From: a bacterium
Lineage (GTDB): Bacteria > Thermosulfidibacterota > Thermosulfidibacteria > Thermosulfidibacterales > Thermosulfidibacteraceae
Direction of reading: 5' to 3'
Length of the DNA stretch: 13,216 bases
Assembly (NCBI GenBank): GCA_027022065.1
Contig: JALVZS010000037.1
Coordinates: 1 to 13,216, forward strand
The notes under the pieces were generated by a model. It saw nothing but the letters and a program-made list of their open reading frames with translations, was not told the origin of the DNA and did not search any database. The position numbers and the translations under genes were made by a program. This document shows positions 1,672-5,391 of the stretch, piece after piece; positions within the stretch are counted from its first letter, which is position 1; each line of letters begins with the position of its first letter.

Positions 1672-1700
1672 CTTTACCTCCTTCGGGCCTTTTGTTATTA

Positions 1701-1729
1701 GAGTTAGCAAGGTGTCTTTTCTTCGTCAA
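1701..1729 (-). promoter_or_regulatory. possible promoter of glyQ
   Basis: TTGACG (1729-1724) is a good -35 match. Exactly 17 nt later is TAACTC (1706-1701), a poor -10. It lies in the 77-bp gap between divergent glyQ and the phosphoglycerate mutase homologue, where a promoter is expected, but the -10 match is weak. Confidence 0.3.
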
Positions 1730-1748
1730 CTCTGCTGGAGGTTGTGTT

Positions 1749-2882
1749 ATGAAACTTTTGGGAGTTATCTTGGGCGGTATAGCGGATCACGCCGTTGATG
1801 GGCTTGGAAGAAGAACGCCTCTACAGGTTGCAAGAACGGCCAATCTGGATCACCTTGCCATGCTCGGAGGGTGTGGCGGGTACCATCCCACCGTTGTGGG
1901 AGAACCTGTGTCCCCCTCCCTTTCCCTTTACATCATGCTGGGCAATCCTCCTGAGCTCTTTCCAGGAAGGGCATCCTTTGAGGCGCTGGCAAGGGATGTG
2001 AAGCTTGAGGAGGGTAGGTTCTATGTGCTTGTGGAGCCTGCGTATGTGGAGGAGGGGATCCTGATAGAGAGCAGGCACTTTGAGTCTGAGGAGGAAGAGG
2101 CAGAGTTTTTTGAGTTCGTCTCTTCCAAGATCAAGCAGATAAAACGGCTGGACTTTGGCCTCTACCTCATGGAGACCGATGCGCATGTTCCCTCAACCCA
2201 TCCGGGTATTGCAGGTGCCCCTGTGGGGGATGCGGGGATCTTGAGGGATTTAGAACAGATTCCTGAAGCCTGGGCAGGCAACCGCTTGAGAAGGGAAAAG
2301 GGGCTTCAGGTTATAAACAGGCTTCTCTTTTACGGATGCGGTAGGTTTGTTGGTTCAGGGTGCAGTTGTTTCCCCATGGATACTGTGTTTTTCACAGATT
2401 CCCACATGTTTTTGGGACTTGTGAAGTGGATGGGATGCAACGCCAAGTTTGTTCCCTCTGATTCTCCTAAAGAATGGCTTACACAGGCCTTTACTGAGGT
2501 GGTGAAGAGGGGGGATCTTTACGATGCGGTATTTGTTTACACAGATTACATACACAGGCACAACATAAGGGTGCGTACCTGGAAGAGGGTTGAGGTTATT
2601 GAGGAGATGGACGCCGCCTTTAGCGTTGTGCTGGATAATCTCCTTAGGGAAGAGGTTGTCATAATGGTTACCTCCGATGTGACCACTCCAAGCTACGGTA
2701 TAAGGCCCTACTCAGGGCTTCCTGTGCCCGTAATCATGGCGGGTGAGGGGGTGAGAAGAGGGCTGAGCAGCAAGTTTGACGAGGCGGTGGCAGGATCGGG
2801 ATCCTTTGGCATAATGAGGGGGAAAGAGCTGCTCTTAACCCTCTTCTCCTATATCGGGTGTCTAGCTCCTAAGGGCCTCTAA
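1749..2882 (+). CDS. archaeal-type phosphoglycerate mutase (ApgM) homologue with degenerate active site
   Basis: A 377-aa member of the ApgM branch of the alkaline phosphatase superfamily. Fold signatures remain: GLGRRTPLQVARTANLDHLA (18-37), FPGRASFEALARDVKLEEG (71-89), NRLRREKGLQVINRLL (178-193), PVPVIMAGEGVRR (325-337) and FGIMRGKELL (353-362). From memory of the family, several catalytic positions look changed. The metal-binding DG of GDGMAD is GG (9-10). The nucleophile region, usually SDxANxxxLG, reads PSLSLYIMLG (56-65). TGDHSTP is TSDVTTP (308-314), losing the His. It may therefore be non-catalytic or repurposed rather than a glycolytic mutase or ThrB4-type homoserine kinase. The ATG at 1749 has GGAGG 7 nt upstream (1737-1741). 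It is divergent from glyQ and converges on leuA with a 4-nt overlap of the ends. Confidence 0.8.
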   Translation: MKLLGVILGGIADHAVDGLGRRTPLQVARTANLDHLAMLGGCGGYHPTVVGEPVSPSLSLYIMLGNPPELFPGRASFEALARDVKLEEGRFYVLVEPAYVEEGILIESRHFESEEEEAEFFEFVSSKIKQIKRLDFGLYLMETDAHVPSTHPGIAGAPVGDAGILRDLEQIPEAWAGNRLRREKGLQVINRLLFYGCGRFVGSGCSCFPMDTVFFTDSHMFLGLVKWMGCNAKFVPSDSPKEWLTQAFTEVVKRGDLYDAVFVYTDYIHRHNIRVRTWKRVEVIEEMDAAFSVVLDNLLREEVVIMVTSDVTTPSYGIRPYSGLPVPVIMAGEGVRRGLSSKFDEAVAGSGSFGIMRGKELLLTLFSYIGCLAPKGL

Positions 2883-4438
2883 ATGGCCTCCTTGTAAAGA
2901 GAAATTTCATAGCCCTGGGATTCAAGCTCCTTTCTGTACAGATACTTGTTCACCGCGTTTATGTAAGCCTTTACGGATGCCTCTATAACATCCACACTGC
3001 TTCCCTTTCCCACTATCTCAACGCCGTTGAACTTCACCTTAACCGTTACCTCTCCAACCGCGTCCTTTCCTTGGGTTACCGCCCTCAACTGGTATGAGGT
3101 GAGCTTGCCCTGTATTCCTGTGATGCTGTCAAGGGCCTTGTATGCAGCATCCACGGGTCCGTCTCCAATGGCGGAGTCCTGGAGGATTTCGTTGCCCCTT
3201 TTAAGCCTAACGGTGGCGGTGGGAAGTAGCCTGTTTCCGCTTGTGGTATGTATGTAGTCAAGCTCGTAGGTTTTGACGGGAATGGAGAGGAGCTCTTCCT
3301 GAGCAATGATGAGGATGTCGTCGTCCAGCACCTCTTTCTTCTTGTCAGCAAGCTTCTTGAACCTTTCAAACACCCTGTTGAGCTGCTCCTCCGTGAGGTC
3401 TGTGAACCCCAACTGCTCAAGCTTCTGCTTCAAGGCGTGCCTTCCAGAGTGCTTTCCCAGAACCAGTCTTGAGGATGGAAAGCCCACAGTTTCAGGCCTC
3501 ATGATCTCATAGGTGAGGGGGTTTTCCAGAACGCCGTGCTGGTGGATGCCTGCTTCATGTGCAAAGGCGTTTTTGCCCACAATGGCCTTGTTGGGCTGAA
3601 CATACACACCGGTTATGTGGGAAACGAGGGTGCTCGTTTTGTAGATCTCCTGCGTTCTTATCCCTGTGGTGAGGCTAAAGTGATCCCTCCTTGTGTGTAT
3701 GGCCATGACGATCTCTTCAAGGGCTGCGTTTCCTGCCCTTTCCCCTATGCCGTTTATGGTGCACTCCACCTGCCTCGCTCCCGCCTCTATAGCCGCTAAG
3801 GAGTTGGCGACTGCAAGTCCAAGGTCGTTGTGGCAGTGCACGCTCACCACGGCCATGTCTATGTTGGGCACCTTGTTCATGATGTAGGATATCTTCTCCT
3901 TGAACTCAGAGGGGATGGCGTATCCGACGGTGTCCGGGATGTTTACCGTTGTGGCTCCTGCCTTTATCACCTCCTCTATCACTTTACAGAGGAAGTCCAG
4001 ATCGCTCCTTGTTGCATCCTCTGCGGAGAACTCCACATCATCAGTGAAGTTTCTGGCAAACCTCACCGCCTCAACGGCCCTTTCCAGAACCTCTTTGGGG
4101 TCCATCTTGAGCTTATACTTCATGTGTATCTCGCTTGTGGCTATGAATGTGTGGATGCGCTTTCTCTCGGCTGGCTTTACGGCCTCAGCACCTATCTCTA
4201 TGTCCTTTTTCACGGCTCTGCACAGTGTTGCTATTACGGGCCCTTTAACTTCTTCGGCTATGCGCTGCACGGACTCAAAGTCTCCAGGGGAGGATGCGGC
4301 GAATCCTGACTCTATCACATCAACTCCCAGTCTTGCCAGCTGTTTGGCCACGATGAGCTTTTCGTTGATGTTCATGGAGAATCCAGGGGCCTGCTCTCCA
4401 TCCCTCAGTGTTGTGTCAAAGATAAATACCTTTTCCAT
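2879..4438 (-). CDS. leuA: 2-isopropylmalate synthase
   Basis: A 519-aa cytoplasmic enzyme catalysing the first committed step of leucine synthesis: acetyl-CoA plus 2-oxoisovalerate to 2-isopropylmalate. The HMGL-like TIM barrel (about 1-270) shows [10 protein letters not shown] (10-19), SPGDFESVQ (50-58), metal ligands in SVHCHNDLG (199-207; His201, His203) and GIGERAGN (230-237). [11 protein letters not shown] and [10 protein letters not shown] follow in the linker. The C-terminal about 130 residues match the LeuA allosteric dimerisation domain, so leucine feedback inhibition is expected. The ATG at 4438 has GGGAGG (4450-4445) 6 nt upstream. Length and motifs match the long bacterial LeuA form rather than homocitrate or citramalate synthases, though these relatives cannot be fully excluded; the leucine-rich leader upstream supports LeuA. 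Nothing follows in the same direction, so the attenuator appears to control leuA alone. Confidence 0.96.
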
Positions 4439-4467: not shown

Positions 4468-4503
4468 AAAAAAAGGGCCATGAACCTTTGCGGCTCATGG
4501 CCC
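4468..4503 (-). terminator. intrinsic terminator of the leu attenuator
   Basis: On the minus strand GGGCCATGAGCC (4503-4492), loop GCAAA (4491-4487) and GGTTCATGGCCC (4486-4475) form a 12-bp stem with a single G-U pair, followed at once by seven T (4474-4468). This is a textbook Rho-independent terminator placed upstream of leuA rather than behind a gene, about 30 nt before the leuA start. Its 5' arm overlaps the segment used by the competing antiterminator. Confidence 0.93.
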
Positions 4504-4580
4504 CTTGAAGGCCTCTGCAAGGGGCCACAAGCGGTGTGCCCGCCTGTGGCCCCATCTATGGTTAGGGCCCCAGGCGGGCC
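4468..4580 (-). promoter_or_regulatory. leucine attenuator: competing RNA hairpins in the leuA leader
   Basis: In transcript order the leader carries four complementary segments and then the terminator. A, GCCCGCCTG (4579-4571), lies inside the leader ORF. B contains GGGGCCACA (4553-4545) overlapping CAGGCGGGC (4546-4538). C is TGTGGCCCCTTG (4529-4518). D is CAAGGGGCC (4507-4499). Perfect 9-bp pairings are possible for A:B, B:C and C:D, and D overlaps the 5' arm of the terminator. Inferred logic: with scarce leucyl-tRNA the ribosome stalls upstream of A, A:B forms, C pairs D, the terminator cannot form and leuA is transcribed. With ample leucyl-tRNA the ribosome reaches the stop and covers A, B:C forms, D is freed and the terminator forms. 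The pairings are seen directly; the switching order is inference. Confidence 0.88.
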
Positions 4581-4618
4581 TTGGTAAGCAATAGACCGTT
4601 CAGCAGTAACATGAGCAT
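4562..4618 (-). CDS. leu operon leader peptide (leuL type)
   Basis: An 18-codon ORF upstream of leuA encodes MLMLLLNGLLLTKARLGP and ends in TAA. It has a strong ribosome site, GGAGG (4630-4626), 7 nt before its ATG, and starts about 27 nt after the predicted transcription start. Eight of 18 codons are Leu, at positions 2, 4, 5, 6, 9, 10, 11 and 16. They use CTC, TTA, CTG, CTG, CTA, TTG, CTT and CTG, so all six Leu codons occur. The last codons overlap segment A of the attenuator. Its role is to sense charged tRNA-Leu by ribosome stalling; the peptide itself probably has no function. The position, codon content, ribosome site and downstream terminator together make this much stronger than a chance small ORF. 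Confidence 0.92.
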   Translation of the reverse strand: MLMLLLNGLLLTKARLGP

Positions 4619-4651
4619 CAATTTGCCTCCAAGTTTTATGGTTTTTACTGC

Positions 4652-4680
4652 AAGATATAAAAACTCTAATGGGCTGTCAA
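4652..4680 (-). promoter_or_regulatory. sigma70-type promoter of the leuA leader
   Basis: A perfect TTGACA -35 (4680-4675), a 17-nt spacer and a TATCTT -10 (4657-4652, four of six consensus bases). Transcription should start near 4645, giving a short 5' UTR before the leader peptide ATG at 4618. Placement directly ahead of the leader ORF and its ribosome site supports it. Confidence 0.8.
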
Positions 4681-4733: not shown

Positions 4734-5024
4734 TTAGGCTTCGCAGAGCTTCTCCAACTCGTTTATCTTGTTGAGGAAGTTGTCTAGCTTTTCCAATAGA
4801 ATGGGAATGGGGGCATTTTTGGAAAAGGCAAGCATCCTCTCCACATCAAAAAAGTCTTTGTCTAGACTAAGCCTTATGACTTTATTGTCGCCGTATATGG
4901 CAGCCCTTGCTAAAAGCTTCCCGGCCTTATCTATGAGTAGAAGCCCTTCAAAGTCCTGCCCTTTTTTGAGAAGCCTCTTTGCTTCCTCAAGGGTTTCCTT
5001 TGCCTCTTTCAGAAACTTCTCCAT
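4734..5024 (-). CDS. small helical protein of unknown function (96 aa)
   Basis: I do not recognise this protein. It starts MEKFLKEAKETLEEAKRLLK, a charged amphipathic helix (about 1-21), followed by FEGLLLIDKAGKLLARAAIYG (25-45), a more ordered middle with RLSLDKDFFDVERML (51-65), and a second Lys/Glu/Leu-rich helix at 73-93 (ILLEKLDNFLNKINELEKL). It lacks a signal peptide or membrane segment, so it is probably a soluble, largely helical cytoplasmic protein. The ATG at 5024 has AAGGAGG about 6 nt upstream; the frame stays open further upstream to 5144, but that stretch would cross the predicted promoter and has no ribosome site. No clear terminator separates its stop from the leuA promoter 53 bp downstream, so read-through into the leu attenuator is possible. 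Confidence 0.75.
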   Translation of the reverse strand: MEKFLKEAKETLEEAKRLLKKGQDFEGLLLIDKAGKLLARAAIYGDNKVIRLSLDKDFFDVERMLAFSKNAPIPILLEKLDNFLNKINELEKLCEA

Positions 5025-5044
5025 CTTTCCCTCCTTGCACCTTA

Positions 5045-5073
5045 AAGATATATAAACGGACTTGATGTGGCAA
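5045..5073 (-). promoter_or_regulatory. sigma70-type promoter of the 96-aa helical protein
   Basis: TTGCCA (5073-5068, five of six -35 bases), a 17-nt spacer and TATCTT (5050-5045), the same -10 hexamer and spacing as the leuA promoter. It lies about 20 nt upstream of the start at 5024, within the 94-bp gap between divergent genes. Confidence 0.6.
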
Positions 5074-5118
5074 TGCCTTGGTGTTAAGAGATGGGAGCTA
5101 GAAATGAGGAGGTGAGGG

Positions 5119-5391
5119 ATGAGCCATCTGCATCTTGAAAACATAAAGCCTGTTAGGGAGTTCTTTAAAAAGCTTCAGCAGCTTTACCCCGCCCCTTGGC
5201 ACCACCATGAGGTAAGGGTGAAGGGAAAGGACGGGAAGGAGTATAAGATTTTCATTCCTGAAGGTCGCCCCGATATGCTTGCTGTGGTTTCTGATGGGGT
5301 TTACGAGGTGTTTGAGAGCCTGGATGAGGCCTGTGAGTTCCTGAGGGAGAAGGTGGGCCTTACCCTACTTCCTCCGAGGTGCCGCCAGTAA
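5119..5391 (+). CDS. hypothetical 90-aa protein, first gene of a five-gene run
   Basis: I do not recognise a family. The ATG at 5119 is preceded by a strong AGGAGGTGA ribosome site. The N-terminus (LENIKPVREFFKKLQQLY, 6-23) looks helical, then comes PAPWHHHEVRVKG (24-36) with three adjacent His, a likely beta section KEYKIFIPEGRPDMLAVVSDGVYEVF (40-65) and a C-terminal helix LDEACEFLREKVG (68-80). The tail ends in PPRCRQ. It lacks a signal peptide or membrane helix, so it is probably a small soluble alpha/beta protein; the His cluster could bind metal, but that is speculation. Its stop lies 3 nt before the start of the glucosaminidase gene, so the two are almost certainly co-transcribed. It is divergent from the 96-aa helical protein. 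Confidence 0.75.
   Translation: MSHLHLENIKPVREFFKKLQQLYPAPWHHHEVRVKGKDGKEYKIFIPEGRPDMLAVVSDGVYEVFESLDEACEFLREKVGLTLLPPRCRQ

Follow-up and report, generated by a model that had tools for sequence, protein, structure and literature searches.

The leuA gene on the minus strand of the window (the whole 13,216-nt stretch of DNA analyzed here) is preceded by a leader that is very probably a ribosome-mediated transcription attenuator, in which charged Leu-tRNA would be sensed through a relay of six RNA segments. The parts expected of such an attenuator are present: a ribosome site and an ORF with a run of Leu codons, conserved and mutually exclusive folds, an intrinsic terminator, and a gene of leucine biosynthesis downstream. 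From 4680 to 4438 on the minus strand, these occur in the order promoter, ribosome site, leader ORF, chain of mutually exclusive helices, U7 terminator, and leuA:

4675..4680, minus strand: -35 element, a perfect TTGACA, present at the equivalent position in each of the five leuA upstream regions.
4652..4657, minus strand: -10-like element TATCTT after a 17-nt spacer, a consensus match only.
4626..4630, minus strand: Shine-Dalgarno sequence GGAGG of the leader ORF, recognized from the sequence.
4562..4618, minus strand: leader ORF MLMLLLNGLLLTKARLGP, 18 codons, with Leu-rich counterparts in the same place in five relatives.
4586..4594, minus strand: control codons CUA UUG CUU (Leu 9-11), directly 5' of segment 1; the Leu run before segment 1 is kept in relatives.
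4566..4580, minus strand: leader hairpin 1:2, GGCCC/GGGCC (4580-4576/4570-4566), 5 bp; 10 bp in G004, G005, and G007.
4538..4579, minus strand: antiterminator hairpin [1+2]:[3], 9+7 bp (16 bp); 20-23 bp in G002, G004, G005, and G007.
4521..4553, minus strand: hairpin 3:4 (4553-4540/4534-4521), 14 bp; 13-14 bp across relatives, without a U-run in the window.
4496..4529, minus strand: relay helix 4:5, up to 15 bp with two G-U pairs, which would occlude the 5' arm of the terminator.
4468..4506, minus strand: intrinsic terminator 5:6, 15-bp stem 4506-4492/4486-4472, U7 tract 4474-4468.
2879..4438, minus strand: leuA, 2-isopropylmalate synthase, 519 aa (TIGR00973, 766 bits, cut-off 599).

Transcription probably starts near 4645; a 10 of 12 promoter match such as TTGACA-17-TATCTT is expected by chance about 0.8 times per 600 nt. 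Leucine occupies eight of the 18 leader codons (2, 4, 5, 6, 9, 10, 11, and 16), and the ORF ends in a UAA codon at 4564-4562. An ORF with at least eight Leu codons arose in 16 of 5000 dinucleotide shuffles, while a chain of four helices, each overlapping the next, that closes with a U-rich terminator arose in none of 2000. Additionally, the RNA fold of the leader region has a z-score of -5.8, and 0 of 200 shuffles were equally stable. No other leu genes lie 3' of leuA, and the next gene is convergent with an overlap of 4 nt at the ends; it encodes a phosphoglycerate-mutase-like protein (apgM; 1692-2882, plus strand) that scores 128 bits against a family cut-off of 320. Upstream of the attenuator and on its strand, there is a 136-aa ORF (4734-5144, minus strand) for which no NCBIfam match was obtained.

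A preliminary description of this sequence had located the leader exactly to the base on the minus strand, and the three 9-bp pairings it listed (A:B, B:C, and C:D) are found as given. The A:B pairing (GCCCGCCUG at 4579-4571 with CAGGCGGGC at 4546-4538) keeps its length of 9 bp, while B:C (hairpin 3:4; listed as 4553-4545/4529-4521) in fact comprises 14 bp and C:D (helix 4:5; listed as 4526-4518/4507-4499) 15 bp once G-U pairs are allowed; likewise, the U7 tract stands, and the terminator stem, given as 12 bp, has 15. Overlooked were a further 7 bp beside A:B (4569-4563 with 4554-4548) and the 5-bp leader hairpin. A:B by itself was dropped as the antiterminator after alignment of the relatives, in favor of the longer [1+2]:[3] hairpin.

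Four relatives from the same order as the host (G002, G004, G005, and G007) keep every part of this arrangement 5' of leuA, with compensatory changes in both of the alternative folds. Their leader peptides are, in that order, MRKEAILSLLALLLLRRTRLRSLW, MKKIGLLLSLLLLKARPGAFREG (with a GTG start), MSSSRKYMSLLLSLLLLKARSGVFRGG, and MIRDRALLLGLLLLEARLGVFGGG; in G001, the leader MKGKKLNLLGLLLLRRTRLRSR and both hairpins are present up to the end of the contig, and leuA lies off it. In each leuA leader, at most a few codons separate the end of the Leu run from segment 1. Hairpin 3:4 (terminator 1) is followed by a U-run in G002, G004, G005, and G007, and that of the window has lost its own. In a MAFFT alignment of five leuA leaders, 97% of cells are paired for the antiterminator and 4:5 fold and 94% for the terminator fold, a slid control reaches 58% at most, and the double changes in both folds exceed those of most shuffles; as these leaders are few (n = 5) and mutually related, the covariation is support rather than proof. 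Conservation in relatives had been set in advance as a test that could refute the attenuator, and both the leader ORF and the hairpins proved to be conserved. Strong hairpins by themselves would reduce leuA expression, and the leader could on that account consist of constitutive tandem hairpins or terminators, the Leu-rich ORF being coincidental or unused for control. We regard this as very improbable, given that the ORF and the antiterminator are conserved in all relatives examined and that matching codon runs accompany the same folds at other amino-acid genes.

Under the attenuator reading, a shortage of leucine would cause the ribosome to stall on Leu codons, most tellingly codons 9-11. The stall would leave the end of the ORF free and allow the [1+2]:[3] antiterminator to fold upon transcription, where it may become kinetically trapped. 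Segment 4 would thereby be freed to pair with segment 5, 5:6 could not form, and RNA polymerase would reach leuA. When leucine is ample, the ribosome would reach the UAA codon and cover segments 1 and 2, leaving segment 3 to pair with 4 and releasing 5 to 6, with a transcription stop near 4468. In G002, G004, G005, and G007, 3:4 would itself be a terminator, placing two serial terminators under one decision; in the window, where terminator 1 is without a U-run, regulation would depend on helix 4:5 as relay together with terminator 5:6. We infer actual termination in the leader, and the leucine response of leuA, from the sequence and the modeled folds.

To model these states, growing transcripts of five leaders were folded at 37 and 70°C with the ribosome footprint kept unpaired, using parameters that are poorly calibrated at high temperature. 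With the mask at the stop codon, the antiterminator was absent and 3:4 formed in all five leaders, and at full length 5:6 formed in nine of ten runs (five leaders at both temperatures). With the mask at most Leu codons, the antiterminator formed before segment 4 existed, and 4:5 followed in most cases once segment 5 had been made; at the last Leu codon, where the footprint lies over most of segment 1, antitermination was weaker or absent in several leaders. Because the calculated optimum at full length was often the terminator even with the stalled-ribosome mask, readthrough must, we infer, rest on co-transcriptional kinetics. The fold adopted without translation is uncertain, since the 1:2 hairpin has just 5 bp in the window. 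A worry that the terminating ribosome is already off segment 1 in G004, G005, and G007 was resolved, as segment 2 is within its footprint. Anatomy, conservation with covariation in relatives, and footprint-masked folding support the complete ribosome-mediated leucine attenuator of leuA that had first been proposed.

The same design recurs throughout the phylum of the host. A covariance model built from five leuA leaders (R1) has matches in all nine genomes of this phylum, and these matches place the design ahead of five or more kinds of genes. The trpE leaders contain WWW or WWWW (G001, G004, G005, G007, and G008); in G003, a Trp leader is present but no gene is visible behind it. A 2-amino-3,7-dideoxyheptulosonate-type aldolase (TIGR01949) is preceded in all nine genomes by leaders that mix Phe, Trp, and Tyr, including DFFYFWWYYFKGARPWRPKR in the window's genome (L163, G000:C9:4013-4160, minus strand) and WFWFYYWWGLP in G007; the further loci are L160, L161, L165, L168, L171, L179, L202, and L206. 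The aldolase attenuator looks as if all three aromatic amino acids were sensed by one element. PaaK-type phenylacetate-CoA ligase genes lie behind Phe-rich leaders in G004-G008 and behind an aromatic leader in G002, which points to a part for the enzyme in Phe synthesis from phenylacetate. The PaaK leaders (L178, L172, L173, L180, L187, and L186) are of the form GFWGGFFF..GP and have a single terminator. Furthermore, WWW leaders precede a LivH-type permease in G003-G007 (L158, L170, L185, L203, and L211), for which tryptophan or another aromatic compound is the predicted substrate, and QGWWWQTL-type leaders precede an outer-membrane-like protein of ∼305 aa in G005, G006, and G008 (L221, L222, and L223) that is perhaps a tryptophan or indole channel. 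Gene names in this family and outside the phylum, other than those checked separately, were read from the translated sequence. The attenuator reading for leuA is supported by this family, because trpE and other amino-acid genes have this design too, each with a codon run to suit (Trp in the case of trpE). No leaders were seen 5' of ilvD and hisG in the phylum's genomes, either by eye or with a simple ORF scan. Low-scoring model matches in G000 (C92, C46, C221, C55, C39, and C172) and elsewhere were judged from their sequence to be chance.

Among 21 elements aligned to R1, an alignment that leans to the terminator fold by construction, 93.5% of cells are paired and 25 of 32 pairs have changed on both sides. 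Helix 4:5, which is absent from the model, pairs in 97.9% of cells, against at most 52% for a slid control, and 0-2 of the 98 other terminator arms in these genomes match a given segment 4 as well as its own segment 5 does. These values bear on the least secure step of the proposed mechanism, the function of relay 4:5, as tandem copying could also yield similar hairpins. The leader could be a leucine attenuator in which 4:5 is a non-functional by-product of a second terminator copied from the first, control lying in the antiterminator versus 3:4. Segments 3 and 5, and likewise 4 and 6, are alike in many elements, as expected after tandem duplication, and in several masked folds 5:6 forms alongside the antiterminator. 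This alternative nevertheless appears unlikely: the helix remains paired in 98% of cells and shows double changes, segment 4 is seldom matched by the other terminators of these genomes, and in the window, where 3:4 is without a U-run, nothing would tie the ribosome to the sole terminator if 4:5 were lacking.

Outside the phylum, R1 gave one strong match over 60 genomes, at trpE of G051. A second covariance model, R2, built from 21 elements of which one is that of G051, was run over 386 genomes and matched nine outside genomes at an E-value of 1e-5 or better. Seven of the nine matches (G051, G052, G086, G115, G242, G255, and G221) read as amino-acid leaders with two hairpins, and the tandem plan is therefore not confined to the phylum. 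In G221, the leader FYFYFIRVCLS precedes a DAHP-synthase-like gene; the other six leaders stand before trp genes, that of G051 being cut by the contig end. Of the remaining two genomes, G092 has the leader SFFYFGGVCPG, and the match in G208 is doubtful. The outside two-hairpin loci are L201, L213, L214, L215, L217, L218, L220, and L228. No match to Rfam leader families was obtained at any of the twelve loci scanned. Short Leu-rich ORFs also lie 5' of leuA in Planctomycetes and Verrucomicrobia MAGs (L091, L092, L108, and L109) and in G031 (L020), and terminator-like hairpins occur 3' of the ORFs in all four MAGs; the leaders of these MAGs and of G031 are likely independent leucine attenuators.

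The order of pairings in the leuA leader is that of the enterobacterial his leader, which has six segments, 1:2, 3:4, and 5:6 terminating and 2:3 and 4:5 giving readthrough; the layout is shared, and no homology is claimed. The leuA leader differs from it in its Leu codons, in the gene controlled, in that segment 1 also pairs with 3 to give one long antiterminator hairpin, and in that 3:4 is itself a putative terminator in four relatives of the window. With the E. coli and Salmonella leu leader (Rfam Leu_leader), which follows a four-segment plan, it has in common the Leu-run ORF, alternative folds, an intrinsic terminator, and leuA as the next gene, and the window's leader gave no covariance-model match to Leu_leader. 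The actinobacterial LEU element 5' of leuA has a conserved pseudoknot, with no classical attenuator at leuA (PMC1262725); a leader with Leu codons ahead of leuA is common to both, whereas the window's leader has a terminator and an antiterminator. Tandem terminators with a potential antiterminator have been described for the rimP leader of Gammaproteobacteria (PMC2965389), which shares the two serial terminators but has not been presented there as a leader-peptide device for an amino acid. T-boxes, riboswitches, and elements of the actinobacterial LEU type are likewise 5' leader devices of amino-acid genes (PMC1262725), and one of these, or control of leuA translation instead of transcription, could be invoked here. 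Such an explanation is scarcely credible: the window's leader has no match to the Rfam T-box and none in Rfam at the gathering score, below which there are merely unrelated weak matches, and the leuA ribosome site (GGGAGG, 4450-4445) is clear of all helices and preceded by the U7 terminator. In the literature searched, which covered few subscription papers, nothing on point was found concerning tandem terminators in leader-peptide attenuators. Further comparative surveys of leader-peptide attenuation exist, and broader reports are possible.

It had been suggested that the host might resemble Aquificota or Thermodesulfobacteriota, in which case the attenuator would widen a range best known from Proteobacteria and Actinobacteria. 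Neither suggestion holds: kinship labels place the host in a small separate phylum for which nine genomes are available, all of one order, and it does not belong to the two phyla named because their members would carry the same-phylum label. Moreover, beyond Proteobacteria and Actinobacteria (PMC1262725), leader-peptide attenuation has been reported for Firmicutes (PMC2965389) and inferred in Bacteroidetes (PMC9723704). No 16S was found in the host assembly. The thermophilic host suggested at the outset is supported by full-length reverse gyrase in the window's genome (G000) and two members of its family, G001 and G002 (1183-1259 bits, cut-off 472); in the phylum's other families, there are merely topoisomerase-like partial matches.

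The mechanism is thus a known, textbook one, and what is new is the taxon, the shared regulon, the leader for three aromatic amino acids, and the two-terminator relay, which may deserve to be named as a separate variant. We consider the case evenly balanced for a broader proposal: that a single ribosome-mediated attenuator class, with two serial terminators, a relay helix, and codon runs fitted to each gene (Leu, Trp, Phe, or Phe, Tyr, and Trp together before the first gene of the aromatic pathway), governs a large part of amino-acid supply in this small thermophilic phylum, and that the relay, which recurs ahead of trp genes in a number of other lineages, constitutes a distinct, undescribed architecture. 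A covariance model of the kind built here detects attenuators of this sort in other lineages at loci without an Rfam match. The family also yields testable substrate predictions for unannotated genes, namely control by Trp of a LivH-type transporter and of an outer-membrane-like protein, and control by Phe of a phenylacetate-CoA ligase. Textbook attenuation, in which transcription and translation are coupled, would here operate in a phylum with reverse gyrase, in which the RNA switches must work hot.
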